DNA of 41,968 nucleotides from positions 1 through 41,968 of IMG/VR virus record IMGVR_UViG_3300034104_007229. One strand, given 5' to 3'. Shown piece after piece: positions 4,327 through 33,490 of the stretch. The notes beneath the pieces were generated by a model. The model saw nothing but the letters and a program-made list of their open reading frames with translations. It searched no databases and had not been told where the DNA came from. Source of the stretch: a virus. How positions within the stretch are numbered: the stretch's first letter is position 1; every line of letters begins with the position of its first letter. The position numbers were made by a program, and so were the translations under genes.

Positions 4327-4926
4327 TTAATGTTTACAGACAATCTTGTGTTCCTCCCAACCTTTTTCAGGTTTTTTGTTTGGGAAGTGATAACATTTCC
4401 ATTCCTTTGAGTTCTTGAAAAAAATGTGCTTTGTAAACCCGTCAGGTACAGTTGCGTTAGTTGGAAGTACTATTGAAGTCTTATCATAGTTTAAGGTAAT
4501 TTTTATAAAAAGGTTTTCCTTGTCATCCCATTTTCTTTCTTGTTCCTCTAAAAGTCTCCATTCACCACGATTCAAATATTGGTCTTGAAGAGCACAGTTT
4601 AAATACGAGAAGGTTGTTTTTAGATTTTCCATATTATCACTAAAGGTTGCCGCAGGTGCCAAATGTCCTTTATCGTAAACATTTTTAGCGTAATCTTGGT
4701 GGTCCGAGGTCTTAATGTTTTTTTCAGCGTAAAAATCCATGGAACCTCTGTTGACATTTGTCGGACGATTTGTTGATTCATAAGATAACCAAAGTGGTTG
4801 TTCTAATTTTTGGGAATAATAGACCTCATAAATTGGTTTTTTTATCAATACGTCTGTCATTGTAATGTTCGATACGAACAAAACAAAAACACCAAACATC
4901 AATGAAATATTAGTTATAGTTTTCAT
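4327..4926 (-). CDS. Secreted DNA/RNA non-specific endonuclease (beta-beta-alpha-Me type)
   Basis: A 199-residue protein with an N-terminal signal or anchor segment (residues about 5-23, ISLMFGVFVLFVSNITM). The nuclease core has DKGHLAPA at about 85-92, matching the DRGH-type catalytic motif, and a second conserved block with Asn, Gln, Asn, Trp and Glu (NCALQDQYLNRGEWRLLEEQ). Serratia nuclease and EndoG belong to this family. Last gene of the surface operon. It could degrade DNA outside the cell or in the periplasm, for example competing phage or host debris (inference). Arg of DRGH is Lys here, a tolerated variation. Confidence 0.8.
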   Translation of the reverse strand: MKTITNISLMFGVFVLFVSNITMTDVLIKKPIYEVYYSQKLEQPLWLSYESTNRPTNVNRGSMDFYAEKNIKTSDHQDYAKNVYDKGHLAPAATFSDNMENLKTTFSYLNCALQDQYLNRGEWRLLEEQERKWDDKENLFIKITLNYDKTSIVLPTNATVPDGFTKHIFFKNSKEWKCYHFPNKKPEKGWEEHKIVCKH

Positions 4927-4928
4927 AG

Positions 4929-6119
4929 TTAGAAATTTACTTTACCTGAATATCCAGGTGTAATTATGTAGAAGTTTTGTGAACCCCCACGGGTTAGATT
5001 TCCCGTCATTATAGACAAAGAACCTGGGTATAATGAACGAACGTTTGTCGTTGAATTTGTTATTGAGATAAATTCACTTGGAGTGAAAATAGAAGACCTC
5101 GGCACAATAGGTGTGGTTATTAAACCCGATTTCAAACCAAACAAAAAATATTGGTCAGAAACATTTATTTTTCCATCATTATTCAAGTCAAAACGATAAT
5201 AATTCAAACCATTAGTCCCAACCAAACCGAAAACAATGTCACTTATTCTTTTACCATCATTATTTGTAAATTGTTGGGTGGGAATTGGCGCCGTAAACTG
5301 TACCCTAAACTCAAAATTATTCACATCTAATCCTGTTGTTAAGAACTGATATCTCCCTTGTGAGTTAGTCATAACTGAACGATTCAAAACAAATTCATTT
5401 GATACTACTGAGGGACTGAAACGATACTTTTGTGGCGTTAAAATAGACCAAGCACTGGCGTTTTTACCGCCAACAGGAACGACCTTCCCCCCATCGATGT
5501 TAGTTAATCCGAGTGTTGCTCCGTTACCCCCACATAAAGGTTTTGATTGAAAGTTTACATCAATAACATTTGTGGTTTCGAATAAAACAATTTGAAAAGT
5601 GTGGAGATTAGACCTACAACCATAGTGTGGCACGTTGTTAAAGTTGAATACTAATACTCTGTTCGGAGCGGTTCCTGTGGTGTAGTAGTTCATATTACCT
5701 GTGTTGGGTAATAAATCCTCCCAATCCGCCAGAATTGCGTTTTTAGGTGCACCTCCGTTGGGTAGAAATTGAGCGGTATATCCATTGGTTTGTCCCGCAG
5801 AAAAACCTATCCAACCATTTGAACTAACGTAAAATTGAGTGTAGTTGTTTCCAAAATAATTGAATGTAAAACCTATGTTGTATGGACCTTGAACACAATC
5901 GTCACATCCCGCTAAAGACGCTCCTCCAGTAAAACTATAATTGGAGTAAGTTGGTTCATTTATTTGATAATTTGATATGGACCGTGTATAGAGTTCTACA
6001 GGAACATTGGCAACACCTGTTTGGTCAGCATCATAAACATAACCCGAGAACGTAAATTCTTGACCATGTAGAACGCCAAATAAAAAGAATGATATGACTA
6101 TCAAAAATCCTTTCATCAC
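4929..6119 (-). CDS. Secreted adhesin-like protein with dockerin-like calcium loop
   Basis: A 396-residue protein with a signal peptide (residues 1-19). A domain at about 22-45 resembles carboxypeptidase-regulatory/prealbumin-like folds (FSGYVYDADQTGVANVPVEL). Residues about 55-235 (NIGFTFNYFGNNYTQFYVSS, NAILADWEDLLP) have the look of a nidogen-like extracellular beta domain common in Bacteroidota surface proteins. A calcium-binding dockerin-like repeat follows (FDLNNDGKINVSDQYFLFG, about 313-331). No T9SS sorting domain is seen at the C-terminus (ITPGYSGKVNF). It overlaps the preceding gene by 4 nt. It may be bound by the cohesin-like parts of the 630-residue protein of the same operon. Confidence 0.7.
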   Translation of the reverse strand: MMKGFLIVISFFLFGVLHGQEFTFSGYVYDADQTGVANVPVELYTRSISNYQINEPTYSNYSFTGGASLAGCDDCVQGPYNIGFTFNYFGNNYTQFYVSSNGWIGFSAGQTNGYTAQFLPNGGAPKNAILADWEDLLPNTGNMNYYTTGTAPNRVLVFNFNNVPHYGCRSNLHTFQIVLFETTNVIDVNFQSKPLCGGNGATLGLTNIDGGKVVPVGGKNASAWSILTPQKYRFSPSVVSNEFVLNRSVMTNSQGRYQFLTTGLDVNNFEFRVQFTAPIPTQQFTNNDGKRISDIVFGLVGTNGLNYYRFDLNNDGKINVSDQYFLFGLKSGLITTPIVPRSSIFTPSEFISITNSTTNVRSLYPGSLSIMTGNLTRGGSQNFYIITPGYSGKVNF

Positions 6120-6568
6120 ATCTTAGAAACAGAAACCTCTAACGCCTTTTTTACCGCACTTGCGAATGTTGATTTTTCGAATGGTAGGTTCTCATCTCTG
6201 AGTTCTGCAAAACTCGCTTTTACTGACAACTTAGCAGAACCTTCTCCTGAATATTCAATCCCGTCTTTCTGAATAATCACTTTAACAATTGTATTCTTTT
6301 TTTTAATCATAAAAGGACCAATGTTGATTCCAACTGTTGGTGCCTCTATAGAAGTTATAGAAACGTGAATCGGTAAACCTTGTTCACAGATTGTAAATTT
6401 TTCCCCCATAAGTTCCTCAGTCAATTGTTTCAATCCAAAAACAAATTTCTTCGAAGACAAATCAGGATTTTCTGTTAAGTTTTCAACCTTGAAAACCGAG
6501 TAACAATTTTGTGCAAAACTCGGAACAGTTAATAAGCTAATAATTGAAATCAAAATAAAGTTTTTCAT
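6116..6568 (-). CDS. Small exported protein of the CsgG-like operon
   Basis: A 150-residue protein with a signal peptide ending in SFAQ (residue 20) and no further membrane segment, so periplasmic or secreted. Contains FVFGLKQLTEELMGEKFTIC and a beta-rich middle (GPFMIKKKNTIVKVIIQKDG). It overlaps genes on both sides by 4 nt. In curli systems small periplasmic accessories (CsgE/CsgF) go with CsgG; the placement suggests a similar accessory role, but I cannot see sequence identity to either. Confidence 0.65.
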   Translation of the reverse strand: MKNFILISIISLLTVPSFAQNCYSVFKVENLTENPDLSSKKFVFGLKQLTEELMGEKFTICEQGLPIHVSITSIEAPTVGINIGPFMIKKKNTIVKVIIQKDGIEYSGEGSAKLSVKASFAELRDENLPFEKSTFASAVKKALEVSVSKM

Positions 6569-8049
6569 AATAATATTTTCCCTCCTGTTAATACTTGGAA
6601 CTGTAAAACGCTTCCCTTAAATTCATAAGTACCAGATAAACTTATGTTGTACTTAAAGTTCTTAGATATAGTATAATCCCATGAAGAAAAAGGAACTATC
6701 AAAAGCCCTGAATCCCACCATTTACCCTCGTAAAACTTTGTGAATGGTGAATATACCCCTAAAACCAAAATGTTACCTGATATTTTCTGACTCAATTTAA
6801 ATGGATGGAAACCGCCACCAACAGCTGAAAGGTTGGTAAATACTTCACCCCCCAAACCACCAACCGTAAAATTCAAACCACCCATAAATGCCGTCTTACC
6901 AATTTTTTTTGAGTCCATCATCGTTGTAGTGTTGAAAAAGTTTCTTTCAAAGTCAATCATCGATGAATTAGCAATAATAAAGGTGTTAGTCCTTTTCGTA
7001 TTGTTGAATGCCCCATAAAGAGTAAGATTTGTGTTGTTTACAGTTGAAGTAAAGTTCAATAGGAGCCCTTTTGCTCGGGTATTGTTTGTATTGGATTTTG
7101 TTACTGACATTGTACCTCTGAGTTGACTACTCTTGTCTTCATTTACTCTGATTGCAACAATATCACCAGTTCCTATAACACTTCCTACGTTTGCCCTTCC
7201 TCCTGATTTACCACCCGATGATGAAACAGCATTCGAAACTGAGTTTGTCGTTCCTCCTGTGCCTCCACCTGAACTTTCATTTTGTTTTGTCGAACCATCA
7301 GGAACATTTTGTCCTTGAGATTGTCCTTGAGAAGTGTTCGAACCCGATTGGGTGTTACCACCACTATTCTGACCCGTATTTGAGCCAGAATGTGTATTTC
7401 CTTGACTTGAGGGGTTTACAGACCGCTGAGACGTTCCACTTCCCCCTTGAGGAACATTATTTGATTGGTTAGTTGTTCCTCCTTCTTGATTATTTCCTGT
7501 TCCATTTGTAGATGAAGAAGATTGGTTTGTTCCTTGGTTAGTTCCTCCGTTCTGAGACGTCGCATTATTTGATGAATTTCCTTGAGAATTATTAGTTGTT
7601 CCATTTGAATTCGTATTTTGTTGATTATTCGAAGAGTTGTTACCTCTACGAGAGTTTCCGTTTCCTGAATTGGAATTACCTACGGAATTTGCAACAGCAT
7701 TTGATGCTGTCATGGTTGAACTGGCTGTAATACTTGTTAAAGTAGATATTAAATTTTGAGTTATAAACATATTCTGTGATGATTGGGTGTTGGTAAGTAA
7801 CTCATCACATGGTTGGTTAGCGGCTTGGGATTGTATTTGATTAATCCAATTGTCAAAGTTACCATTCAGGAAATCAGATTGGCTAAAACTACTGATGTTT
7901 CCTAAGTAATTGACGGTTATCAATTGATTGGAATTAACATTCAGAACTTTTGTCTCCTTGGAACAAGGGTCCACATAAGAATATGTGAACCCCTGTCCAA
8001 AAAGATTTGAAGTAAAAATAAGGGATAATATTACTAAAAGTTTTTTCAT
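6565..8049 (-). CDS. Exported protein with long Ser/Asn/Gly/Gln linker and barrel-like C-terminus
   Basis: A 494-residue protein: signal peptide (1-19), a compact N-terminal part with two Cys (YSYVDPCSKETK, ANQPCDELL), a low-complexity linker from about 125 to 285 made of Asn, Ser, Gly, Gln and Thr, then an aromatic, beta-strand-rich C-terminal part (about 295-494) ending ...LTGGKILL, which resembles an outer-membrane barrel. The linker is AT-poor relative to neighbours and repetitive. It overlaps both neighbours by 4 nt. It could anchor in the outer membrane with the linker spanning periplasm or surface. Function unknown. Confidence 0.7.
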   Translation of the reverse strand: MKKLLVILSLIFTSNLFGQGFTYSYVDPCSKETKVLNVNSNQLITVNYLGNISSFSQSDFLNGNFDNWINQIQSQAANQPCDELLTNTQSSQNMFITQNLISTLTSITASSTMTASNAVANSVGNSNSGNGNSRRGNNSSNNQQNTNSNGTTNNSQGNSSNNATSQNGGTNQGTNQSSSSTNGTGNNQEGGTTNQSNNVPQGGSGTSQRSVNPSSQGNTHSGSNTGQNSGGNTQSGSNTSQGQSQGQNVPDGSTKQNESSGGGTGGTTNSVSNAVSSSGGKSGGRANVGSVIGTGDIVAIRVNEDKSSQLRGTMSVTKSNTNNTRAKGLLLNFTSTVNNTNLTLYGAFNNTKRTNTFIIANSSMIDFERNFFNTTTMMDSKKIGKTAFMGGLNFTVGGLGGEVFTNLSAVGGGFHPFKLSQKISGNILVLGVYSPFTKFYEGKWWDSGLLIVPFSSWDYTISKNFKYNISLSGTYEFKGSVLQFQVLTGGKILL

Positions 8050-8387
8050 TCTCCTGTGTTAGAAAGCGTTTCACCATCTTCCTCGTCAACCTTCTGAACT
8101 AACATTTTATCACGGTCCTCTGAGTTAAACCAATAGTCAACAACTTTATTTAAGTTACCAACAAAAGCACCTAATAGGATTAACAACATTTCGTTCCAAT
8201 CTTGATGAATGTCAACTCCTGTAAACGTTGCTAGATTAATACCAAAAATGATGAAGAAAAATAGAAATAATACAATGACGGTGATTCTCCATCTATTTGA
8301 TTGCATTTGTTGAAGCATGAAATAAAAACGATTTTTATCGTCCACCTTAACGTATTCATTACTTGAAAAGAAATTTTTTAATGACAT
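8046..8387 (-). CDS. Small inner-membrane protein, possible holin-like
   Basis: A 113-residue protein with a basic N-terminal half, a strong membrane helix at about 35-55 (VIVLFLFFFIIFGINLA) and a second hydrophobic segment at about 67-80 (LLILLGAFVGNLNKV), then an acidic tail. The LLGAFVGNL segment resembles glycine-containing helices of phage holins, but its place inside a secretion-like operon suggests it may instead serve the CsgG-like pore. It overlaps the next gene by 4 nt and follows the pore gene by 1 nt. Confidence 0.65.
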   Translation of the reverse strand: MSLKNFFSSNEYVKVDDKNRFYFMLQQMQSNRWRITVIVLFLFFFIIFGINLATFTGVDIHQDWNEMLLILLGAFVGNLNKVVDYWFNSEDRDKMLVQKVDEEDGETLSNTGE

Positions 8388-8388
8388 A

Positions 8389-9117
8389 TTAATTTACAAG
8401 TTTACCTTTTTTGATGAGTTTTTCTACAACTCTTACTGAAGCAGTTTCCAAAGCTTTTTTTGTAGAAACTCCGACAGTTGATTTATTAAATACAGGTCCT
8501 TCTAAATCTCCTAAGGTTGTTGAGGTTTTAGTAGTAGTTGCCCTACCTTGTCCTGAACCTGTTATCACTTCACCCGATTCGGCATCCACAAATCTTATCT
8601 GTAGACCTAACTGAGTGACTTGTTTGATGGTTACCCCTGAAATTTCAACAACTTCATCCTCACCAACCGAGAAATCATAAACTTCTATGTAAACAAAGTA
8701 TTCTGCCAATTTGATTTTACCTTTACCATCGACTTGGTTTTCAGTAAAGCCTTTTGCGGAAGCCTTGAATTGTTGAACCATTCTTTCTTTGATTTCTAAC
8801 TTATCTTCAGTGAAGATGAATCTTTGAGTCTCCTCCAAATATTCCAAAACAATGTTAGTAACACCCATCCCGACCCTCGCATCTTTTAGTTCAGGATACA
8901 TTTCGTACACATCTTCACTGATTCCGATTTTCAAGATTTGAATTGGTATTTGAACGGTCCCATTGTAGGGTGGAAGAGCATCCAAAGACTTTTTCTTTTC
9001 AAAGTCAGCGGTAAATTCTTCAGTCTTGACCGAACCAATTGGTTGTCCAAAAGACTGAAGTCCAACAACTAAAAAGAATGGAAGTAATAATTTACCAAGG
9101 TGCGTCTTCACTCTCAC
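8389..9117 (-). CDS. CsgG-like outer-membrane secretion pore component
   Basis: A 242-residue exported protein (signal peptide about 1-24, ending QSFGQ; no lipobox Cys). The body has CsgG-family features: GMGVTNIVLEYLEETQRFIF, then GVTIKQVTQLGLQIRFVDAE and SGEVITGSGQGRATT, which correspond to the periplasmic nucleotide-binding-like fold carrying a pore loop. E. coli CsgG is about 277 residues and forms a nonameric outer-membrane channel for curli subunits. The missing lipobox is unlike classical CsgG. The gene overlaps the previous one by 26 nt, and all eight genes of 4.3-11.4 kb run the same way with minimal spacing. Confidence 0.75.
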   Translation of the reverse strand: MRVKTHLGKLLLPFFLVVGLQSFGQPIGSVKTEEFTADFEKKKSLDALPPYNGTVQIPIQILKIGISEDVYEMYPELKDARVGMGVTNIVLEYLEETQRFIFTEDKLEIKERMVQQFKASAKGFTENQVDGKGKIKLAEYFVYIEVYDFSVGEDEVVEISGVTIKQVTQLGLQIRFVDAESGEVITGSGQGRATTTKTSTTLGDLEGPVFNKSTVGVSTKKALETASVRVVEKLIKKGKLVN

Positions 9118-9400
9118 TTTTCTTCTCCTCTTTAACAGGTTGAGCAGGAACCTCTTTGATGGTTTCCTTTACAATTGTGTTAGTCCCTCCTTTTTGTTGC
9201 TGAGTGTTCTCTTGATTTTGTTGAACATTTACAACTACAGGTGCAGGTGCCGCTTGTTGAGTAGGAGCTTCTTCAGCTCCGCCACCAAATAACATGGTAG
9301 AAAGCCAAACACCACCGCCTGTAACAACTGTAGCAATAGTTCCGATTATTGTCTTTTTTAAACCTGACAAGGTTCCGTCATTTTCTTGTTCTTCTGACAT
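9092..9400 (-). CDS. Single-pass membrane protein with Gln/Pro-rich tail
   Basis: A 102-residue protein: short acidic N-terminus, one membrane helix (about 16-40, TIIGTIATVVTGGGVWLSTM), then an Ala/Pro/Gln/Glu-rich low-complexity tail (APTQQAAPAPVVVNVQQNQE). It starts a translationally linked series with the CsgG-like gene, overlapping it by 26 nt. It could tether the secretion apparatus to the inner membrane (inference). Confidence 0.6.
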   Translation of the reverse strand: MSEEQENDGTLSGLKKTIIGTIATVVTGGGVWLSTMLFGGGAEEAPTQQAAPAPVVVNVQQNQENTQQQKGGTNTIVKETIKEVPAQPVKEEKKSESEDAPW

Positions 9401-9442
9401 GATTTTGAAATTTAATTGGGTTTATTGTTTTTATTGGGCTAA

Positions 9443-9469
9443 CTTGAGGTCTCAATTTGAGACCTCAAG
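9443..9469. repeat. Perfect 12-bp inverted repeat between operon genes
   Basis: CTTGAGGTCTCA (9443-9454), loop ATT, TGAGACCTCAAG (9458-9469). It lies in the 72-nt gap between the 630-residue T9SS gene and the rest of the operon. There is no run of T on the leftward side after it (TTAGCCC follows), so it is not a typical intrinsic terminator; a processing site, attenuator or mRNA-stabilising hairpin is more likely. Confidence 0.6.
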
Positions 9470-9472
9470 ATT

Positions 9473-11365
9473 TTATTTTACTTTTCCTACTTTTTCTACC
9501 AAAACTTCTTCATTTGTGTTCAACATCACCAAATAATTTCCTGACGCTAAAGTCCCCAAGTCGTAAGTTTGAGAATATACTCCGATTGGATAAGTTCCAT
9601 TTAGAATTTCGAAGTATTTTTTTCCGTTGATATCATAAACTCCAAGAAGTACGTGAGTCTTTTTCAAGATTTTAAATGTAGAGGTCTGTGGTCCGGTAGT
9701 TGGATTAGGAAACACAACAAAGGTCTTATCACCCATATAATCTAACCCATCGGTTTTTAGAATTTGAAGAATACCGTCCGTTGGTGTAATTTTTAAATCT
9801 TTTGCCAAAGTGTTTCCCGCGAACTTTCTTGTAATGTATAGGGGACTTTTATTCCAATCCGTTTGGACTTCCTTCGCACTAAACTTCAAAGTAAAAAGTA
9901 TTTCACCATTTTGAACTAAGTTCTGATTGTTAGAAGGGTCAAAACCTCCCCACTCAATTTCATTGTTTTGAGGGTTTACCCAAGACATCCAATACGATGA
10001 TTTTAGTTCATTTTCTAATGAAATAAACTCCAATAAATCAGAGTCATATTTCATAGAAATTTGTAGCGAACCAATTGGATTGGTTGACTTTAAACTTACG
10101 GGAACTTCCACAATGTCACCTTCCATAACCCCTAAAGTTGGAAAATTAATTTCGATTGAAGGGACGTTATTGTCGTACTCGGTGGTAACGTCAATAATGT
10201 GTTGGTTTGCATTGTTTGGATTAATGATTTCGATTGGTGTCAAACGAGCTCTTTTGAATCCTGTTCCGTTAGCATCACCAGGTACCAAGACATAATAAAT
10301 TACCGAGTCAGGTTGACCCGAAACTAAGTCGAAGGTGAAGTTTGTAACACCAGGAATCGATGTTTGTTGTGAAGTACTTGAGCCGTTAACCGTAGTATAT
10401 TCGGATTCAGTAAAGAATTTAACTTCAGGAACGTTATTAGCCCAAGAGGTAAATCTACCTGAAACTCTAGCGTAAACTCCATAAACGTCAGATATATTAA
10501 TCTTGTTATCTCCATTTACATCAGATGAATAAAAATCGAATCCTGAAAGAGTTTGCTGTCCCAAAACAAATTGATTGATTTGTTGAGCATCACTTACTGA
10601 TACTACATTACCAACACTTAAAGTATCACCTTTAACATTGATTCTGACATCCCAAGCAGTGGTATCAACTTCAATGTCAGCGAAACTAAATCTACCATCG
10701 AGTCCTGCTTGTTGAGTTTGAACTGAACTCCATGAAGATGAAGATTTGAGTTTTTTCTCTAACACTACATTGATATTTTTAGCGGGTGTTCCCGTGACGT
10801 TAACAAATTTTCCACCAAACGTAAATTTGTTGGGGAGAAACGCCCCACCAAAATTTGTTAAACTCAAAGTGTAATCTGTACCATTTTGTTTTGTCGCCGT
10901 TTCGGGAAAAAGATTAGTACCAACAAATGTCATACTACTGACATTGAAGTAGGTAGTTGCTAAAGCAGGTTTGTGGTTGTATGTGATTTTGAATAACTGT
11001 CCATTAGGAATGGTAAATGATGAATTATTTCCTGTGTACGTAAGTGTTAGGGTAACATATCCACCTGAAGGGTTATCTTGATATTGTAGGTATTGTGTAA
11101 ATGTCGTATTCAAAGATTCTACGGTGTCGACACCTGAAAAGGCTTGAACATCATAAAATACTCTGAACTGTACTGCGGTAATATTTTCCGCCGAACTGTT
11201 ATTGAAACAAAGACTGACATCAGTTTTTCCCCTCGAGTAAGTACCTGTTTGGTAACTAGCGTCTAGAGTCAAATGAGCCCCTGTTGTTGTGGGTATCGGG
11301 CATGTTTGTGAATACCCTGTCCCACTTATTAGTCCCGCTAAAAGCAGGAAAAAAAGTTTTCTCAT
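9473..11365 (-). CDS. T9SS type A secreted protein with cohesin- and dockerin-like parts
   Basis: A 630-residue protein: signal peptide (1-19), an N-terminal beta domain (about 27-140) that looks cohesin-like, a beta sandwich (about 180-255), a dockerin-like calcium repeat (SSDVNGDNKINISDVYG, about 281-297), a second cohesin-like domain (about 420-515, GDIVEVPVSLKSTNPIGSLQ), and a C-terminal type A T9SS sorting domain (about 545-630) with VFPNPTTGP and a basic end (VEKVGKVK). T9SS carries such proteins across the outer membrane and fixes them to the surface lipid. First gene of the leftward operon, with a TATTTAT box 20 nt upstream. A T9SS cargo in phage-like DNA is unusual. Confidence 0.85.
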   Translation of the reverse strand: MRKLFFLLLAGLISGTGYSQTCPIPTTTGAHLTLDASYQTGTYSRGKTDVSLCFNNSSAENITAVQFRVFYDVQAFSGVDTVESLNTTFTQYLQYQDNPSGGYVTLTLTYTGNNSSFTIPNGQLFKITYNHKPALATTYFNVSSMTFVGTNLFPETATKQNGTDYTLSLTNFGGAFLPNKFTFGGKFVNVTGTPAKNINVVLEKKLKSSSSWSSVQTQQAGLDGRFSFADIEVDTTAWDVRINVKGDTLSVGNVVSVSDAQQINQFVLGQQTLSGFDFYSSDVNGDNKINISDVYGVYARVSGRFTSWANNVPEVKFFTESEYTTVNGSSTSQQTSIPGVTNFTFDLVSGQPDSVIYYVLVPGDANGTGFKRARLTPIEIINPNNANQHIIDVTTEYDNNVPSIEINFPTLGVMEGDIVEVPVSLKSTNPIGSLQISMKYDSDLLEFISLENELKSSYWMSWVNPQNNEIEWGGFDPSNNQNLVQNGEILFTLKFSAKEVQTDWNKSPLYITRKFAGNTLAKDLKITPTDGILQILKTDGLDYMGDKTFVVFPNPTTGPQTSTFKILKKTHVLLGVYDINGKKYFEILNGTYPIGVYSQTYDLGTLASGNYLVMLNTNEEVLVEKVGKVK

Positions 11366-11385
11366 AGTTATGTAGATTAGTACTT

Positions 11386-11392
11386 ATAAATA
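11386..11392 (-). promoter_or_regulatory. TATTTAT box in near-palindrome between divergent genes
   Basis: The 29-nt gap between the divergent starts at 11365 and 11395 holds TATTTATAAGTA on the minus strand, which reads TACTTATAAATA on the plus strand. The minus-strand box is exact and 20 nt from the 630-residue gene. The plus-strand version differs by one base and ends 2 nt before the metallopeptidase start. Confidence 0.5.
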
Positions 11393-11394
11393 CT

Positions 11395-11853
11395 ATGAGA
11401 ACCCTTCTATTCTTTTTATTCACTTTAATAAATTTTCAACTCTTGAGTCAAATCAAAATTGACCAAGTTGGTGATAATTGGCAACCCAAAGTCGAACAAG
11501 CAATTCGACTAATAAAAAAAACTGATAAACAAAAATACGATTATTTAATCAAGCACTGTAAACACATCACATTTTTCGATGGAAGATTTTCTACAATTGA
11601 AGGAACCCATACAATTGTATTAGGAAATTTTGATATGAAGAGTAACTCGATTGAAAATATCGCTTCAGCTTTGGTTCATGAAACCATGCACCTGATTATG
11701 GTTCAAAACAAAATTGTTTTAAATGAAAAAGAAGAAGAATGTATTTGTTACAGTTACGAATTGAGTTTTTTACTCAACTTACCTGACTGCCCCGAATTTT
11801 TGATTAAAAATTGTAGGAGAATGTTGAAATCTTATGAATGTAACCCCTTGTGA
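11395..11853 (+). CDS. Exported metallopeptidase-like protein (HExxH)
   Basis: A 152-residue protein with a signal peptide (about 1-19, ending QLLSQ) and a zinc-binding motif HETMHLIM at about residues 100-107, followed by EKEEECICYSYELSF, where Glu could be a further ligand. Unlike the HExxH protein at 3769 it is exported and is not obviously related beyond the motif. The end overlaps the sulfotransferase gene on the other strand by 22 nt. Substrate unknown; peptidoglycan-linked or surface protein processing are options. Confidence 0.7.
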   Translation: MRTLLFFLFTLINFQLLSQIKIDQVGDNWQPKVEQAIRLIKKTDKQKYDYLIKHCKHITFFDGRFSTIEGTHTIVLGNFDMKSNSIENIASALVHETMHLIMVQNKIVLNEKEEECICYSYELSFLLNLPDCPEFLIKNCRRMLKSYECNPL

Positions 11854-12755
11854 TTTTTATTTTCCCAAGGAAAATCTTCAATTGAGTTTTCTATACCTAA
11901 CCAATTAGTGAATCTTTTGAATTCACCTTTTTTTTCTATCTCAACGATTTTGAAATTGTTCGGTTTGCCTTTAAAAAACTCAACACAATCTTCTTTGTGT
12001 TTTTCATAAATCTCAACAAGTTTATTATTCAAATTATCTTTGTTTTCTAATCCCCAACTGTCAAACAAAGTAACCAAGGGATTGAGAAGATATCTGAAAC
12101 TTTCATCCGTGAATGTTGTTGTCATAAAAGAACTATCTTTCAATAGATTTTTGTGATGAATAGAATCATAAAAATTCAAAACACTTTTTACCCAAGTTTG
12201 TGCATCTTTTCTCAATGTTAAAACATAAACGTCGTTAGGTCTTTGTTTATAAATTTCTTGGTAAATTTTCGGAAAAGAAAAAGGTTTGTCGTTGAATAAA
12301 TTAAACTGTGGGTTGTTTAGTATGGAAAATAATTTCCCATAATCTCCATGATATACTTCGGGAGCAACAAATTGAAATTGTTGATTCTCTGAGAAAGATT
12401 GATAACCGAAACTTTCCATAGCAGACGTGAATGAGGATGTACCTGATTTATTCAAACCTACACATATGATGTTTTGACCTTTTCGACCACAACTCAAATT
12501 TTTGTCAATTATTTTTGAAAAAAGCGTTTCTTTCGTTTTTGAATTTGAAACCGAAATAAAAGAACATCCTTTATAATTCAAAACCGGTATGAACCATCTA
12601 CCCTTCACATCAAAATTAAAACGTATCGTTCTAAATGGACTATTGAAACCTATTAAGTGAGTTGTAAAATAAACCGAAATTGGTTTGTCCCCTAAATAAG
12701 TTATACGATATTTGTCACCGACAATGTCAAAAGTAAAAATCTCAATCCAGTTCAT
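11832..12755 (-). CDS. Sulfotransferase-like protein
   Basis: A 307-residue protein. Residues about 96-110 contain the PAPS-binding loop IICVGLNKSGTSSFT, and about 177-191 the 3'-phosphate-binding region VLTLRKDAQTWVKSV, both in the order seen in sulfotransferases of the Sulfotransfer family. The N-terminal 90 residues are a beta-rich extension that is not typical. Sulfotransferases move sulfate from PAPS to a hydroxyl or amino group, often on glycans. Close to secreted and glycan genes, so surface glycan sulfation is a reasonable guess. Starts 14 nt inside the upstream small gene. Confidence 0.75.
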   Translation of the reverse strand: MNWIEIFTFDIVGDKYRITYLGDKPISVYFTTHLIGFNSPFRTIRFNFDVKGRWFIPVLNYKGCSFISVSNSKTKETLFSKIIDKNLSCGRKGQNIICVGLNKSGTSSFTSAMESFGYQSFSENQQFQFVAPEVYHGDYGKLFSILNNPQFNLFNDKPFSFPKIYQEIYKQRPNDVYVLTLRKDAQTWVKSVLNFYDSIHHKNLLKDSSFMTTTFTDESFRYLLNPLVTLFDSWGLENKDNLNNKLVEIYEKHKEDCVEFFKGKPNNFKIVEIEKKGEFKRFTNWLGIENSIEDFPWENKNHKGLHS

Positions 12756-14267: not shown

Positions 14268-16328
14268 CTAATGTAGTACGGTAACCTTAAAAGGGTAAGA
14301 AACTACTTCATTGTTGATAATAATTGATACTACACCGTAATATACACCATCAGGAACCCCTCGTCCGTCCCAATCGTTGTTGTACTGTAAACTCTGATAA
14401 ACGGTTTTTCCCCATCTATTCTTGATAATAATCGGTCTAAAGTTATAGAGAAGTAGGTTATTGATTACAAAAAAATCATTGGTATTGTCATTATTTGGTG
14501 TGAAAACATTGGGTATTGTAATGAAAGGTGGTTCGGGTTGTACGCAAATCACATAATTACTTTCGCTTACATATCCGTTGTTTGTTGTTACAACCTTGAT
14601 GTTGTAGTTTCCAACCTTCAAAGTGTCTGACGTCAATAGATAGGTCGTGTCAGTCAAAGATGTTGTATTCCATTTTACCCATTGATTGTTGTATTGTATG
14701 TATACATCGTAAAGTGGGTTATCCCAACCATTGTATTGATTCCACAATAAGTTAACCGAATCACACTCACCATTACTTCTTAACCAAATGGAGTGAATTG
14801 AATCTGATGGTCCGAAAATGAAACCACTATATCTAAAATCAATTTTATATGAATACGTCTGCCCATCAACATTGGTTGCCGTTAAATCATCATAATAAAA
14901 ACGGTCCCATTTTGTAACCAGTTGACGGAAGACATATTGTGTTCCATCCCATTTGAAAATACCATATCCCTCGATAGCGTTCGTATCACAAGAAGCACCA
15001 TCAACACTCCACTGTAAGTTTATGTGATTATCATCAACTACCGTCACATTTTCAAACTGCCATACAGGTTCAACACAATTATCAACAATGATAACCAAAG
15101 TATCAAATTCATCCATCGGGAACCCACACTTGTTGGTTAAAGTATTTCCGTCATTACCAGTCTTTGAATATAAAAAGTAACGACCATTAACCAATAAAGG
15201 TTTAAATAGGACCACTTTGATATATTCGGTTTCTTTGTTTACATCACAATCAGGAATCAAACTCTTGATAGGAATAGGTTGACCAAATGGATTGGTCATT
15301 CTAAAATCACTACCATCTAAAGCAACTGACTCACAATCAATTTTGATTTCAAAGTATAAATCAACTGCCGTGTCTCCACAATTGTAATTGACTGCAGGAA
15401 GCATAGTTACCGAGTCCAAAAATTGACCAGGGTAGTCGTAATCCAAAATAACACCTTGGGTTGCTTGAGGGGAACAGTTAGCGGATATTGATACCATCAT
15501 ATCCCTCGAAGATGACCCTACAGGGTACCAAACAAACCAAGTACTATCGTATCTCCACTCAGTAATCTTTACACTCATTACATCAATTTCTTGTTGAGTG
15601 GGTAAAAAATTTATAGTACCTGTTTTTGGATTAATATTGAAGAATGTTGAAGTGATTGGTTGGGTCGCAGAATATCCAGCGTCAAATGGTATATTTGTTT
15701 GAGTGGGATATAACCCTTCACGACAATTAATCATTTGATAGTGAATACTATCCCCATCATATTCCACACTTGTCTGAGCCCAATTGAATGTTTTATTGAT
15801 ACAGAAAGCCCTAACGGGTTCCGAGACAAAAATTGGTGAGGAGTTGTTACCCGAAGTATTATTTAAGTCAGCGTCAAAGAAGAAACCGTCATTTCCCAAA
15901 GCACCATTTGACGCAAAAATATTTGTAATATTACCGGGTCTACAACAGTCAGACCACCAAAACTTAAAGTTTGAACAGGTACCAGGTAAAATAACAAAAC
16001 CTTTATAAGTATAAATCTCCAAGGTCCTCGTACTGGCAGAACCTGGTGTCACACAATCAAATAACGTCGGCGCCACCAAACCTGAACCCGCTTGTTGGGT
16101 CATAGTGATGTTTTGGTTAGTAAAGCAACTAGAACTGACAGTTACGGTAGTTGTTGCTGGCATACCGATGCCTGTGATATCTCGGTAAAGTCGAAGAATT
16201 ACTTTGTAGTGATGATTGATTCCTGTCGAATCACCAATATATCTATATTGAATGTCTCCACCAGCATAGTGGGAACCAAAACCCACAAAGGAGAACAAAA
16301 ATAAAATCAGGGTAAGAAGTTTTTTCAT
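14268..16328 (-). CDS. Large secreted protein with T9SS type B (gliding-motility-associated) C-terminal domain
   Basis: A 686-residue protein: signal peptide (1-18) followed by SHYAGGDIQYRYIGDS, a start seen in large Bacteroidota surface proteins, with beta-rich repeats after it; fibronectin-III-like segments at about 420-500 and 510-590. The last 80 residues form a type B T9SS domain (NVFTPNNDNTNDFFVINN, IIKNRWGKTVYQS, WDGRGVPDGVYYGVV). SprB-type adhesins and many secreted Bacteroidota proteins carry this domain. It overlaps the lipoprotein gene by 4 nt. Length is short for an adhesin. It needs a host T9SS, since none is encoded here. Confidence 0.85.
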   Translation of the reverse strand: MKKLLTLILFLFSFVGFGSHYAGGDIQYRYIGDSTGINHHYKVILRLYRDITGIGMPATTTVTVSSSCFTNQNITMTQQAGSGLVAPTLFDCVTPGSASTRTLEIYTYKGFVILPGTCSNFKFWWSDCCRPGNITNIFASNGALGNDGFFFDADLNNTSGNNSSPIFVSEPVRAFCINKTFNWAQTSVEYDGDSIHYQMINCREGLYPTQTNIPFDAGYSATQPITSTFFNINPKTGTINFLPTQQEIDVMSVKITEWRYDSTWFVWYPVGSSSRDMMVSISANCSPQATQGVILDYDYPGQFLDSVTMLPAVNYNCGDTAVDLYFEIKIDCESVALDGSDFRMTNPFGQPIPIKSLIPDCDVNKETEYIKVVLFKPLLVNGRYFLYSKTGNDGNTLTNKCGFPMDEFDTLVIIVDNCVEPVWQFENVTVVDDNHINLQWSVDGASCDTNAIEGYGIFKWDGTQYVFRQLVTKWDRFYYDDLTATNVDGQTYSYKIDFRYSGFIFGPSDSIHSIWLRSNGECDSVNLLWNQYNGWDNPLYDVYIQYNNQWVKWNTTSLTDTTYLLTSDTLKVGNYNIKVVTTNNGYVSESNYVICVQPEPPFITIPNVFTPNNDNTNDFFVINNLLLYNFRPIIIKNRWGKTVYQSLQYNNDWDGRGVPDGVYYGVVSIIINNEVVSYPFKVTVLH

Positions 16329-19009: not shown

Positions 19010-20212
19010 CTAAACAAAAACCTCAGGAATTTCATCCCAAGACGTTGTATACTTTCGACTTATAAAGTCTTGTTTCATTTCCCACTTTTTTTCTTTATTA
19101 ATCGGAGCCTGAATGATTTGAATTGTCTGCTCAAAAAGTGATGTCTGACGTTGTGAATCTGGCATCAGGTCATTGAAGATAATTCCACATTTTTTATATT
19201 TTTTACCCACCTGATAAAGTTTTTTCAGGTGTGGGTAAACTTGACTCCAAATCTCATCCACATCTTTGGTTTGTTGGTTGAATGAAATTTGTTTACTTGA
19301 ATAATGTTTTTCCCCTTTGTGGATATTCCCGTTCATGAATATGGTTGCTTTGTTTGGCTCTGCACCATTTTCAATAAGTTTTCTAACACCATTCTTAATG
19401 TAAGTGTACATGGCTTCCGCCAATTGGTCGAAAGAGTCAACATCTTGTCCAAACGAGCGAGTTGAAGCAATGTTCTTTTTAAACTTTGATTGAGTAACAA
19501 CGGAGTGACAATACATTCCAAGGATTTCAGCCTTCGCCCTTAACCCATTTACGTTTAATAGTTTTCTAACATATGCGTCGGGAAGCATAACAAATTGTCC
19601 GATTGATTCCACGCCAATAGCTTTTAGTTTTTTTGCCCACTTACGACCGATACCCCACACTTCATCAACATCAATTTCATAAAGAGAATTCCTAAAGTCA
19701 GGTAAATCCCAATAACTACAGATTCCATTGAATGTGGGTTGTTGTTTTGCCATATGAGATGTGAGTTTAGCCAAGGTCTTATTTGGTCCCACACCAATAG
19801 AAACAGGAATCCCAACTCTACGTTTAACTTGGTCTTGGATAAGTTCCAAGGTGTCCATCAACTCATTGTCAGGGATGTTTGAAAAATCAACGAACGCCTC
19901 ATCAATGGAATATATTTCCATTGTTGTGGAGAACTCTTTGATAACTGACATTACTCTGTCAGACATATCTCCGTAGAGATTATAATTAGATGAATAAACA
20001 CAAAATCGGTGTTCATCCATAAAATCCCTTTTTTGGAAAAAGGGTTCACCCATTTTAATTCCAAGAGCCTTGGCTTCTTGAGAACGAGCAATCACACAAC
20101 CATCGTTGTTAGAAAGAACAACAGTGGGTCTCCCCACCGAGACAGGATTAAAGACCCTCTCACAAGAAACGTAAAAATTATTACAGTCAATAATTCCAAT
20201 TTTCCGAGTCAT
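19010..20212 (-). CDS. umuC: Y-family translesion DNA polymerase, UmuC-like
   Basis: A 400-residue protein that matches UmuC over its length (E. coli about 422). Catalytic carboxylates are present: [17 protein letters not shown] (Asp9) and [10 protein letters not shown] (Asp, Glu at about 103-104). The thumb/HhH region [18 protein letters not shown] (about 175) and the little-finger domain follow. Pol V-type polymerases copy damaged DNA at the cost of mutations. It is the last gene of a three-gene operon with a 21-residue microprotein and a UmuD'-like protein; its ATG overlaps the microprotein stop. Confidence 0.92.
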
Positions 20213-20276: not shown

Positions 20277-20594
20277 TTAACGTTGTTTTAAAATCCAAGA
20301 AACTTTACCCCATAAGTTTTTCTGTCCATCATACTCCCTTATCTTAAAACAAAGTTTGTCAGTTAACACCACTAAGTCACCATCCAAAGGTTGAATTGCT
20401 CGGTCAACAACCAACACATCACCAGGATTTACCCCCAAGGTTTTTGGTCCTTTATATCTAAAATAAAAAGTAGAATGAATGTCCCTAACAATCAATTCAT
20501 TTAGGTCTAATCTCTTGTCCACGTAACTTTCAGCGGGAGAGGCAAAACCTGTCGTCTTGGTATTGATAGTGAGGGTTTGTTCAGTAAAACTCAT
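20277..20594 (-). CDS. UmuD'-like protein lacking the autocleavage nucleophile
   Basis: A 105-residue protein resembling UmuD' (about 115): TGFASPAESYVDKRLDLNEL matches the UmuD segment just after its cleavage site, and GDVLVVDRAIQPLDGD matches the following core. The N-terminal arm is only about 15 residues. By eye, the Ser of the GDSM motif is replaced (YKGPKT, Lys51) and the catalytic Lys aligns to Arg86. So it appears ready-made in the active UmuD' form and free of RecA-driven cleavage. A host-type promoter precedes it; it heads the operon with the microprotein and UmuC. Confidence 0.8.
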   Translation of the reverse strand: MSFTEQTLTINTKTTGFASPAESYVDKRLDLNELIVRDIHSTFYFRYKGPKTLGVNPGDVLVVDRAIQPLDGDLVVLTDKLCFKIREYDGQKNLWGKVSWILKQR

Positions 20595-30017: not shown

Positions 30018-31223
30018 TTAGAATTTGGTCCAACCAAGGAGCCAGTTAGTGGTTCCTTGAGGGATAGCACCTACGTTACCATTCAAGGTTTCAAAACCAT
30101 TTGTAACGGGTGATGTGGAAGATGTCCAAAGTGTATTGTTGTCATTCACAACTTTGGTAGTCATCTCTTCCAATGATAAAATTAATGGAGACTTTGTGAT
30201 AAGGATTTTAGTTGTGTCAACGCTGTGAACAACATTTCCTGTGAATTCAGAAACACCATTTTTAAACGATTGTACTGTGATGTCACTCTCAATCTGTAAA
30301 CCACCTTTCATGTATCCATAAAATACTGAGTTTTTAACTACGAAGTTTGTTCCTCTTCTGAATCTCATCGCCAAGTTGTGGTTTGTGAGAGACTGAGTTA
30401 AAACAGGACCTACGAGTGTGAAGTTAAGAAGGGTTGGTTTGGTTGTTGGGGTAAGGGTTGAACCAGCTCCGTCGTTATCGCATTCAATACCGTTACCAGC
30501 ATCCGCTCCGTCAACAAACAAAGGGTCTCTTTTTGAAATTGCGTATTGGATGGTTCCTCTGTATCCGAAGTCAAAGTCGTAATCATCGTCACCTGTTCCA
30601 ACCGCCACCAAGTATTTAGGTGAAACAGTTCCACCAAAGAACTCAAACGCATCATCAAACGAGTAATAACACTCAACATATTCAACCACGGTTCCACTAC
30701 CGACACCCCCTAAAGTGAGTGCATTTAATTCTGAATTAGCAAACGCAGCGATTCCAGCGTATTCAATTCTCACATACTTGAAAACTCCTGAGTTATCAGC
30801 ATCGTCTTCTCCACCATAATTTTTTCCGACCCCACCTTCGATGATTGGTTCAATTTGGTTGGTCTTTGCTCTACCTAAGATTACAATACCACCCCAGTCA
30901 CCTGATTGTGGGAAAGCGTTTCCTGATGTAAATACGATTGGTTCATCCGCGGTTCCTTCAGCCATAATCTTTCCACCACGTTCGATAATAAGAGCCCCTT
31001 TCTCAGCGATGTCACTGTGAATGGTGGTTCCTTCTTCAATGGTAAGGGTAATTCCCTCAGGGACGAAGACATATCCTTTAAGAGTCCATAGTTTATCCTT
31101 TGTGAGGGTTTTATCCTCAGTTAAAGTACCCTGAAGAACAAGTTCGTTTGGGTCAATGATTTCATCCTCACATGATGTAAAAATTAAAAGTGAGGATAAT
31201 AGAAAAGCTGTTAACTTTTTCAT
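30018..31223 (-). CDS. Surface lipoprotein with beta-helix-like fold, partner of TonB receptor
   Basis: A 401-residue protein with a lipoprotein signal (MKKLTAFLLSSLLIFTSC, Cys 18). Residues about 60-330 contain repeats with WGGIVILGRA, GVFKYVRIEYAG, VEYVECYYSFDDAFEFFGG and FDFGYRGTIQ, the pattern of right-handed beta-helix lipoproteins found next to TonB receptors in Bacteroidota. Its ATG overlaps the receptor stop by 4 nt, so translation is coupled. Such lipoproteins sit on the outer leaflet and cooperate in substrate capture. Presence in phage-like DNA is unusual. Confidence 0.85.
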   Translation of the reverse strand: MKKLTAFLLSSLLIFTSCEDEIIDPNELVLQGTLTEDKTLTKDKLWTLKGYVFVPEGITLTIEEGTTIHSDIAEKGALIIERGGKIMAEGTADEPIVFTSGNAFPQSGDWGGIVILGRAKTNQIEPIIEGGVGKNYGGEDDADNSGVFKYVRIEYAGIAAFANSELNALTLGGVGSGTVVEYVECYYSFDDAFEFFGGTVSPKYLVAVGTGDDDYDFDFGYRGTIQYAISKRDPLFVDGADAGNGIECDNDGAGSTLTPTTKPTLLNFTLVGPVLTQSLTNHNLAMRFRRGTNFVVKNSVFYGYMKGGLQIESDITVQSFKNGVSEFTGNVVHSVDTTKILITKSPLILSLEEMTTKVVNDNNTLWTSSTSPVTNGFETLNGNVGAIPQGTTNWLLGWTKF

Positions 31224-33490
31224 AGTTTGTAATTTAGTGAAATTGAGATTGTTTTCTCGTTTATTGTGTTTATTAAATTCCTGTTCGGTAACTTCTGATA
31301 TAGAATCGTTCCTTGAGATAAAAAGTCAGTCAATCCGAGTTTAAACTCCATCTTTTTGGTTTTATATTGGACCGTCGCGTCTACGAGGTCCCTTCCGTTT
31401 TCATAAATGTCGGAGTATCCGTTGAATCCAACTGCTGATATTCTCTCCCCGATTCTATTGTAGAATAACGAAACAGAAATGTTTTTCTTGGTGTAGAATA
31501 CACCTGTGTTAATTATGTATGGAGACTGACCTTGTAGTGGTCTTGTCATTCCATTTACTGTTACACTTGAGTTGATGTAACTTAAGTTTGTCGAAACCGT
31601 GAATTGTTCTCCGATTTTTTTTCTGAGCTCCATCTCACCACCGAACAACACAGCCTGATTTGGATTAGAATAAGTCAGAATCAAATTGCTTGGTGATGAA
31701 CCATTAGCAACCACTTGTTCAATCGGGTTGTTAAAATGTTTGAAAAATACCGAGGTTGAGAAGTTTTCAGTTGGTGTGAAGAAACTCTCATATCTTAAAT
31801 CTACATTTGTAATCTTTGACTTCTCAAGATTTGGATTACCAATCACTTGAGCATTTCTTACAAAATCATAGAAAGCAAAATTGCTTACCTCCCTAAACTC
31901 AGGACGAGCAACCGTCTGACTTGTTGAAAATCTAAGGTTATTAGACTCGGTTAAGTTATAGTTCAAGTTTACTGAAGGAAGGAAGTCGAAATAGTTTCTG
32001 AAGACTTGTATTTGTCTTCCGCTAAAATCAGCAGTGTTTACCAAAAAGTTTTGGTTTTCGTTTCTAAGACCTCCTGAGTAGTTAAGTCTTCCAACTTTAC
32101 CGGTAAACATTACAAAACCCGCCAAGAGGTTTGACCCACCATTGTAACTATCAGTATTGTTTGTGATTTCACTCAAAGTTATTTTATCACTATACCTGAA
32201 CACTCTTGCGTCAAACATTCTAAGTTTGAATTGTTCAGTGATTCCCCAACTTAATTTTTTACCCGTAATATTGTAATGAGTTCCAAGTCCATGTTCATTC
32301 ATTTTAGACCAAAATCTGTAGGTGTCCCTCCATACAAAATTCATGGTGTCTTGTGAACCTAATGAACGAGCCAATGGAGTAATCCTGTAGTCAGGTTGAT
32401 TACGGTTCATCCAAAAGTAATTCACTCCAAAAGTTTTGTTCAACCAAGTTTTTTCATATTGAGAAGTGTAGATGAACTTTTTATATCCAATAGAGTTTGT
32501 GTAATCAAGTTCTTGTAGGTTGTCGTAATTCTCACCAGTTCTGTGAATAAAAAGATTCTCACCCTGATAATTGAATAGATTTCTTACCGTAAACTTCTTG
32601 GAACCAAGTAGAAAAGTCGGATTGAACATAACACTTAAGTTTTGTGTGTTTGTATTTACCCTGTCATTGTAATCATAAGTTAACTCCGTCAAAGACTGGT
32701 AGTCCCTCCTATTGGAGTAGGTAATTGAGTTTGAATTCCTGTAAATTACATTAGCGACGAATCCGAATCCACCTTCTTTCAAACGAACTCTATTAATGAT
32801 AGAATAATTGAAGTTGAAGTTTAGAGGATTTGTTCTGTCTTGAATCTCAAAGGTTGTCGGAATCATTGAGGTGAAATATCTCCTTTCCTCGAGTGAACTC
32901 ATCCTGAATTCTTTGGTCGTTGGAAAAAGATTTGGTAGGTCACTGAACTTCACATACTGACTTGGTTGAAAAGTAGACAAAGTACCATAAGATGTGCCAA
33001 CAGAAAATGATTGACCAGCGTCGACAAATTCACTCTTTGTGTTGATTTGGATTACACCGCCAGCAAAGTCATTCGGTAGGTTAGCACTTGCCGTTTTGTT
33101 TACCATCATATTTTCCACAACATTACTTGGGATGATGTCAAATGAAAAAGCCCTTCTGTCAGGTTCGGTTGATGAAAGAAGGGCTCCATTAAGAAGTACT
33201 GAATTATATCGGTCGTTAAGTCCACGGATGATTACGAATCGGTCACCCTGAATGGTAAGACCCCCAACTCTTTTGAGTGTCTCACTTAAGTTTTTATCGG
33301 GACTTTTTTTAATTATTTCTTGGGACATCCCATCCACCATTGTCACACTGGTTTTTGCCTGAAGGTTTACAGAACCTTGGGATTCTCTTTTAAATGTTGT
33401 TTTTACTGTAACTTCTTCGAGTTGACCCTCCAAACCTGTAGTATCAACTTGTGACTGAAGTCCAAGTGATAGTAATATTGTTAATAGCAT
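31220..33490 (-). CDS. TonB-dependent outer-membrane receptor
   Basis: A 756-residue protein: signal peptide about 1-13, then directly a plug domain (LEEVTVKTTFKRESQ as a TonB-box-like region; RFVIIRGLNDRYNSVLLNGA, about 80-100; NDFAGGVIQINTKSE), then a 22-strand barrel rich in Tyr, Phe, Asn, ending ISISLNYKL. The carboxypeptidase-like N-terminal domain common in Bacteroidota receptors is missing. Such receptors import vitamins, siderophores or glycans with TonB energy. The lipoprotein gene follows. Its role in phage-like DNA could be nutrient uptake during infection or blocking other phages (inference). Confidence 0.9.
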   Translation of the reverse strand: MLLTILLSLGLQSQVDTTGLEGQLEEVTVKTTFKRESQGSVNLQAKTSVTMVDGMSQEIIKKSPDKNLSETLKRVGGLTIQGDRFVIIRGLNDRYNSVLLNGALLSSTEPDRRAFSFDIIPSNVVENMMVNKTASANLPNDFAGGVIQINTKSEFVDAGQSFSVGTSYGTLSTFQPSQYVKFSDLPNLFPTTKEFRMSSLEERRYFTSMIPTTFEIQDRTNPLNFNFNYSIINRVRLKEGGFGFVANVIYRNSNSITYSNRRDYQSLTELTYDYNDRVNTNTQNLSVMFNPTFLLGSKKFTVRNLFNYQGENLFIHRTGENYDNLQELDYTNSIGYKKFIYTSQYEKTWLNKTFGVNYFWMNRNQPDYRITPLARSLGSQDTMNFVWRDTYRFWSKMNEHGLGTHYNITGKKLSWGITEQFKLRMFDARVFRYSDKITLSEITNNTDSYNGGSNLLAGFVMFTGKVGRLNYSGGLRNENQNFLVNTADFSGRQIQVFRNYFDFLPSVNLNYNLTESNNLRFSTSQTVARPEFREVSNFAFYDFVRNAQVIGNPNLEKSKITNVDLRYESFFTPTENFSTSVFFKHFNNPIEQVVANGSSPSNLILTYSNPNQAVLFGGEMELRKKIGEQFTVSTNLSYINSSVTVNGMTRPLQGQSPYIINTGVFYTKKNISVSLFYNRIGERISAVGFNGYSDIYENGRDLVDATVQYKTKKMEFKLGLTDFLSQGTILYQKLPNRNLINTINEKTISISLNYKL

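Follow-up and report, generated by a model that had tools for sequence, protein, structure and literature searches.

Why should a phage encode a set of proteins suited to export and to the bacterial surface? The question is posed by eight leftward genes at positions 4327-11365 of the IMG/VR virus record IMGVR_UViG_3300034104_007229, a 41,968-base fragment that is termed the window here. An original prediction, made from the sequence alone, had described these genes as a co-oriented surface and export set in phage DNA, with a CsgG-like protein, cargo of the type IX secretion system (T9SS), cohesin and dockerin parts and a nuclease. This description is borne out: all eight open reading frames (ORFs) are present at these coordinates on the minus strand, and the genes recur as a one-strand module in each of 43 distinct viral loci. 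We read them as a late export-and-display module of large Bacteroidota phages that would lay a lectin coat over the infected cell, an interpretation that we judge to stand about evenly between right and wrong.

Gene content and distribution of the module

The module genes of the window, from gene 1 onwards, are:

9473-11365, minus: t9coh (gene 1, 630 amino acids (aa)); signal peptide, cohesin-like N-terminal part, TTR-like and dockerin segment, cohesin domain, T9SS type A C-terminal tail
9092-9400, minus: anch (gene 2, 102 aa); probable inner-membrane segment on the N-terminal side, Gln/Pro-rich tail, invariant C-terminal Trp
8389-9117, minus: CsgG-family protein (csgG, 242 aa); signal peptide, no lipobox in the window copy
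8046-8387, minus: tm113 (113 aa); holin-like in size, with one clear transmembrane helix and a second, probable one
6565-8049, minus: barrel (494 aa); signal peptide, N-terminal domain, disordered linker, predicted 12-strand outer-membrane beta-barrel
6116-6568, minus: second CsgG-family domain by hhalign (csgG2, 150 aa); signal peptide
4929-6119, minus: dock (396 aa); signal peptide, variable head inside a TTR-like domain, dockerin-like calcium loop DLNNDGKINVSD
4327-4926, minus: exported DNA/RNA non-specific endonuclease; PF01223, DKGH motif

The overlaps of 4-26 nt ascribed to the genes throughout apply to four of the seven junctions, which from gene 1 comprise a gap of 72 nt, an overlap of 26 (anch with the CsgG gene), a gap of 1, three overlaps of 4 and a gap of 2. 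In five of the eight proteins the signal peptide, judged by eye, ends before Gln (SQ/T, GQ/P, GQ/G, AQ/N, GQ/E), as described by the Bacteroidetes Q-rule (PMC10653852).

Gene content was counted over the 43 distinct viral loci whose flanks measure 4.5 kb or more on each side; these were collected through the CsgG-like or the 150-aa protein, i.e. the presence of csgG is by construction and the other genes constitute independent evidence. On this basis t9coh, csgG, barrel and the 150-aa gene are each found at 43/43 loci, anch and dock at 42 each, tm113 at 28 and the nuclease at 13, and at all 43 every detected module gene lies on one strand. The commonest order is t9coh-anch-(tm113)-csgG-barrel-dock-csgG2, from which the window departs in having csgG2 ahead of dock and the nuclease last. 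With the CsgG-like protein as a single query 51 viral loci were recovered; with the CsgG-like alignment as query, 375 stretches of viral contigs in IMG/VR, the contigs being up to 343 kb in length, were found to encode a relative.

The same module constitutes gp12-gp19 of the isolated, completely sequenced, lytic-type Flavobacterium phage immuto (Immutovirus, 160 kb), whose genes include Gp20 and Gp23 (T4-type head), tail sheath and terminase. The immuto CsgG-like protein is 61% identical to that of the window, although this phage differs in that the cohesin/T9SS protein and its N-terminal part are two genes, tm113 is missing, and the nuclease and lectin stand at the front; gp12-gp19 are annotated as hypothetical, lectin, cohesin and endonuclease. 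Amongst 396 sampled Bacteroidota genomes only one gave a match, on a 12.6-kb contig of a metagenome-assembled genome (MAG), which is probably phage because it also encodes an endolysin. The reading as phage-specific, which was to fall if such operons occurred only in bacterial chromosomes and this contig proved to be one, thus survives a search for the same operon, and we rejected the window being a bacterial chromosome on the grounds that it is a virus record, that the module occurs in an isolated phage and that a single one of the 396 genomes matches. Outside the module the window carries genes of phage type, namely a T4-type RNA ligase (phrog_562, 9e-67), a Dps-like protein (phrog_858) and DNA methyltransferases, and the module looks like a possession of large viruses of Bacteroidota bacteria.

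That the eight genes form one machine was likewise proposed at the outset; this is an inference, and the core of csgG, barrel and csgG2 has a counterpart in a bacterium. A contig of a KSB1 bacterium encodes, in this order and amongst ordinary bacterial neighbours, a CsgG lipoprotein, a 414-aa protein with a linker and a barrel-like C-terminal part, and a second CsgG-like protein, with no adhesins, an arrangement pointing to an export core. The phage barrel hidden Markov model (HMM) does not match the 414-aa protein, so that the resemblance of the two barrels is one of architecture and position.

Predicted channel and surface proteins

The 242-aa protein gave no Pfam match, PF03783 (CsgG) included, at E values up to 1, nor was a PF03783 match found in six module-bearing phage records; a sequence search of the PDB, with either a single protein or a profile as query, was also without a match. 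An AlphaFold2 model of the protein, built from 30 homologues (pLDDT 71), was then compared with the PDB using Foldseek, for which the 24 best matches are all CsgG (6l7a, E 5e-7, probability 1.00), followed by GNA1162 and PelC, which belong to the same superfamily. The KSB1 homologue (locus L056, 787-1476) matches the phage HMM with E 7e-46 and PF03783 with 25.7 bits against a cut-off of 20.8. By way of this intermediate and the predicted fold, the 242-aa protein is assigned to the CsgG family, as a remote member because the Foldseek matches and the KSB1 link are accompanied by a weak direct profile comparison (see below), and the family is in this way extended to a lineage missed by direct Pfam searches. 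The description of the protein as devoid of a lipobox applies to the window copy and not to the family at large, since 11 of the 30 relatives in the alignment have a lipobox-like Cys; a lipobox regular expression gave 4/43 and is too narrow for FGC-type forms, and the alignment count is preferred.

The 150-aa protein, previously regarded simply as a small exported protein, is by profile comparison a second CsgG-family domain (hhalign against the CsgG-like alignment, probability 96.7, E 3e-10), and its candidacy as CsgE was rejected on the same comparison. As separate observations, one Bacteroidota genome encodes a canonical CsgG fused to a C-terminal outer-membrane-barrel-like domain (PF13505, 2.7e-4, below the cut-off), a hint at joint action of CsgG and barrel, and several further Bacteroidota CsgG frames are similar to it in length (458-469 aa). 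In Brevundimonas phages (350 kb, alphaproteobacterial host) there is a distantly CsgG-like gene (25% identity) whose neighbours are all hypothetical.

The supposition that the low-complexity protein is barrel-like is upheld by its AlphaFold2 model (37 homologues), in which a small N-terminal domain (residues 20-115) and a disordered Ser/Asn/Gly linker (approximately 116-286) precede 12 antiparallel strands (290-492) that reach the C terminus; pLDDT is 58.7 overall and about 70-84 within the barrel part. Foldseek matches are outer-membrane barrels, the porin NanC (9e-4) and then repeatedly FapF (2e-3 to 4e-2). Because twelve-strand barrels all look alike the protein is not assigned to FapF, and the relation is expressed as resemblance rather than membership; the barrel proteins match no sequence family, and no Fap subunit was recognised in the module. 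The conserved N terminus of the mature barrel protein (QxFxYSYxDPC) is, by eye only, suggestive of a CsgF-like plug. The small anch protein ends in Trp in 42/42 relatives, and in Pro-Trp in 39 of these; one of the 42 passes the hydropathy threshold, and it is from a Gly-rich membrane segment read by eye that an inner-membrane segment near the N terminus is probable. For tm113 no confident family was found in Pfam or PHROG.

Amongst the surface proteins, t9coh contains a cohesin domain (PF00963, 9e-13), a Dockerin_1 match below cut-off (0.0024) and a T9SS type A tail that in the window scores 24.5 bits with TIGR04183 (cut-off 23) and slightly under cut-off with the Pfam version. The tail is found in 27 of 34 relatives and, taken together with the signal peptide, identifies t9coh by sequence as T9SS type A cargo. 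The dock protein is without a T9SS tail, and the residues of its calcium loop (D311, N313, D315 and D322) are invariant in 31/31 relatives, whose head domains include Lectin_C (21), Laminin_G_3 (13) and PA14 (3); the head of the window copy was not recognised. Alignments of close relatives indicate that lectin heads are swapped: the locus L005 has a CsgG 87% identical to that of the window and a dock protein 83% identical over the full 396 residues, whereas at L003, with CsgG 89% identical, dock aligns across only 168 of 396 residues. Derivation of the lectin head from a tail fibre of the same phage was considered and rejected, there being no such similarity in immuto. In immuto two different proteins bear these parts, gp15 the cohesin and T9SS tail and gp13 the lectin and dockerin. 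The nuclease matches Endonuclease_NS (PF01223, 3e-23) and phrog_14168 (8e-19), and its DKGH motif is intact.

In the lineage of L034 and L055 no T9SS tail was detected on the cohesin protein; the gene after it encodes a small lipoprotein (7171-7548 and 8213-8584, respectively) whose C-terminal part is by eye like a T9SS tail, with no Pfam match.

Probable late expression, proposed mechanism and competing explanations

Two features of the window bear on the expression of the module:

11385-11392, minus: TATTTATA, phage late-promoter-like motif, followed by AGTA, about 20 nt ahead of gene 1
9443-9469, minus: 12-bp perfect hairpin in the gap that separates gene 1 from gene 2, where the transcript might be processed or attenuated

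The motif TATTTATA stands upstream of t9coh in 17 of 48 cases and upstream of the remaining module genes in 2 of 254. In immuto, where motif positions were compared with starts of coding sequences (CDSs) by hand, 24 of the 30 plus-strand copies lie 9-48 nt ahead of annotated CDS starts (approximately 2 expected from gene density), and the genes behind them include terminase, portal (Gp20), tail sheath, tape measure and the lectin gene of the module itself. Since the motif precedes both the operon and the structural genes of immuto, it is probably a late-type promoter element and expression of the operon is probably late. Genome-wide, TATTTATA is promoter-like and orientation-specific in this phage group (the window, and immuto with L053 and L131-L133); for the reversed motif TATAAATA, about half of the near-start copies overlap TATTTATA. 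Scans for sigma-70 promoters and generic terminators returned promoter-like and terminator-like counts close to the shuffle expectation. The hairpin has a folding energy of -18.9 kcal/mol, and its stem is kept with changed bases in L003, L135, L137 and L175 and nearly unchanged in L012, L017 and L018. Because of its place after gene 1, a single uninterrupted transcript is not certain, and gene 1 may be partly uncoupled from the rest of the operon.

In the mechanism that we propose, module proteins would first be exported by Sec. The two CsgG-family proteins and the tethered 12-strand barrel could then assemble into an outer-membrane export channel, which the small membrane protein(s) and the Trp-ended anchor would link to the inner membrane. 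Through this phage channel the dockerin protein with its swappable lectin head, sometimes with the nuclease alongside, might leave the cell. The cohesin protein would instead exit via the host T9SS, its sorting tail fixing it on the cell surface, where it would hold the dockerin-lectin, with the result that the infected cell gains, late in infection, a lectin coat of the phage's choosing. The likeliest benefit would be the clumping of cells or particles around progeny, or the exclusion of competing phages. A more elaborate version is conceivable and on balance doubtful: a ring of the CsgG family and a barrel of FapF type would together make up a hybrid secretion machine of the virus, and the dockerin-lectins that it exports would dock on a cohesin scaffold anchored by T9SS, giving a cellulosome-like late coat with exchangeable heads.

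Several observations weigh against the display interpretation. CsgG- and FapF-type channels move unfolded chains, and folded lectins would be an unusual cargo. The CsgG model has a TM-score of only about 0.33 to known CsgG, a value lowered by its extended and uncertain parts, and direct hhalign of the 242-aa profile against Bacteroidota CsgG gives probability 16 and E 0.0016. No homologues of CsgE, CsgF or the curlin-repeat proteins CsgA/CsgB were recognised in the module using Pfam, PHROG and NCBIfam. The dockerin matches of the window fall below the Pfam cut-off, no dock gene was detected in the L034/L055 lineage, and lysis genes often adjoin the module.

The last of these points introduces the main alternative, itself unlikely, in which the CsgG-family pore, barrel, anchor and holin-like proteins would breach or destabilise the outer membrane as infection ends, in the manner of a spanin or as a gated pore, with the adhesins and nuclease as passengers or release helpers. 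A GH19 endolysin (PF00182, 6e-9; phrog_181, 3e-72) adjoins the module at 16 of 39 loci, the module itself includes small membrane proteins that are holin-like, and the late motif TATTTATA would suit such a role. Inner- and outer-membrane spanin pairs are known for gene overlap, which the 26 nt shared by anch and csgG recall. A role in lysis timing has moreover been suggested for the CsgG of phage Melnitz (PMC9004378). However, the chitinase and holin of immuto (gp79, gp80) are located some 30 kb from the module, the bacterial core in KSB1 has no adjoining lysis genes, and the presence in nearly all loci of cohesin, dockerin, T9SS tail and swapped lectin heads would be left unexplained. Because all the parts seem to be late, there may be some truth in display and in lysis alike.

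Superinfection exclusion or receptor masking, in which the displayed lectin would bind host glycans and block other phages or the re-adsorption of progeny, amounts to the display interpretation with a defined benefit, and in this precise form we consider it a little less likely again than lysis. Head swapping would fit the matching of host glycans, and superinfection roles have been raised for both phage curli (PMC9599517) and phage T9SS cargo (PMC7468147); on the other hand, the immuto lectin head has no sequence link to other immuto proteins, tail proteins included, and late expression would mean late action. The exported nuclease with its intact DKGH motif could alternatively indicate scavenging, i.e. 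that pore, barrel and nuclease import nucleotides or large molecules for phage synthesis, as uptake through CsgG has been suggested for pelagimyophages (PMC7029224). This we regard as highly improbable, given that the nuclease is present at just 13 of the 43 loci, that the promoter motif is late, and that lectin and cohesin would again be unaccounted for.

Relation to known systems and neighbouring genes

The module had also been called undescribed, which may hold for the combination and is too strong for its elements. CsgG or curli genes in phages have been published (PMC7029224, PMC9004378, PMC9599517), as has T9SS-tailed phage cargo in Cryophage, the genes varying between phage variants and one of them having a PA14 domain (PMC7468147). 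With the type VIII (curli) genes of pelagiphages and the Methylophilales phage Melnitz (CsgG/CsgF, CsgA/B) the module shares a phage-encoded outer-membrane protein of the CsgG family within a conserved cluster, those of HTVC008M also lying beside replication genes. Their CsgG is nevertheless canonical, at 43-44% identity to a Bacteroidota CsgG, whereas that of the module lacks a PF03783 match; and the module, with no recognised CsgF or curlin, has instead a barrel, a second CsgG domain, an anchor, a T9SS cohesin and a dockerin-lectin. The T9SS type A sorting tails are a likeness to the cargo genes of Cryophage, although those are single genes and the tail here belongs to a cohesin protein that is a constant member of an export operon.

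FapF, the Pseudomonas amyloid exporter, comprises a periplasmic coiled-coil or helical part that a disordered linker joins to a barrel (PMC5557850). The predicted 12 strands, disordered linker and tethered N-terminal periplasmic part with a helix in the module barrel are similar, whereas the N-terminal domain is a different one, no sequence similarity was found, Fap subunits were not recognised and porins score about equally. A cellulosome likewise places cohesin on an anchored protein and dockerin on a second, exported one; the module differs in having a single cohesin-bearing protein, a lectin rather than an enzyme, a viral origin and anchoring by T9SS, and its cohesin-dockerin pairing is a predicted one.

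A search of the literature on cohesin/dockerin or T9SS in phages, outside which most subscription papers and preprints lay, found no description of the combination, so that, phage CsgG and phage T9SS cargo each being known, it is their combination that would constitute the new part. Hundreds of Bacteroidota phage contigs, and a phage in culture, carry the conserved module, most of whose genes are annotated as hypothetical. If display is correct, phages would remodel the host surface as infection draws to a close, by means of their own channel together with the host T9SS, and would exchange lectin heads as they exchange receptor-binding tips. The culturable phage-host pair provides a testable case for why phages carry curli-type pores, be it sibling capture, superinfection exclusion or lysis.

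Further genes of the window comprise:

11395-11853, plus: divergent exported protein with a HETMH metallopeptidase-like motif, weakly SprT-like (E 0.069)
11832-12755, minus: sulfotransferase-like protein (PF17784, 5e-13), adjoining the module
14268-16328, minus: 686-aa exported protein with a T9SS type B/CHU_C tail, the second T9SS cargo of the window
19010-20212 and 20277-20594, minus: adjacent UmuC-like and UmuD-like ORFs, by sequence appearance only
30018-31223, minus: putative lipoprotein, its gene coming after that of the receptor listed below
31220-33490, minus: TonB-dependent receptor (Plug 8e-11, barrel 2e-22)

The cluster of the divergent HETMH protein is represented at 20 of 39 loci, and in many relatives it is a same-strand member of the module. 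Close relatives of the TonB-dependent receptor occur at four viral loci only, with more distant ones in unannotated phage records.

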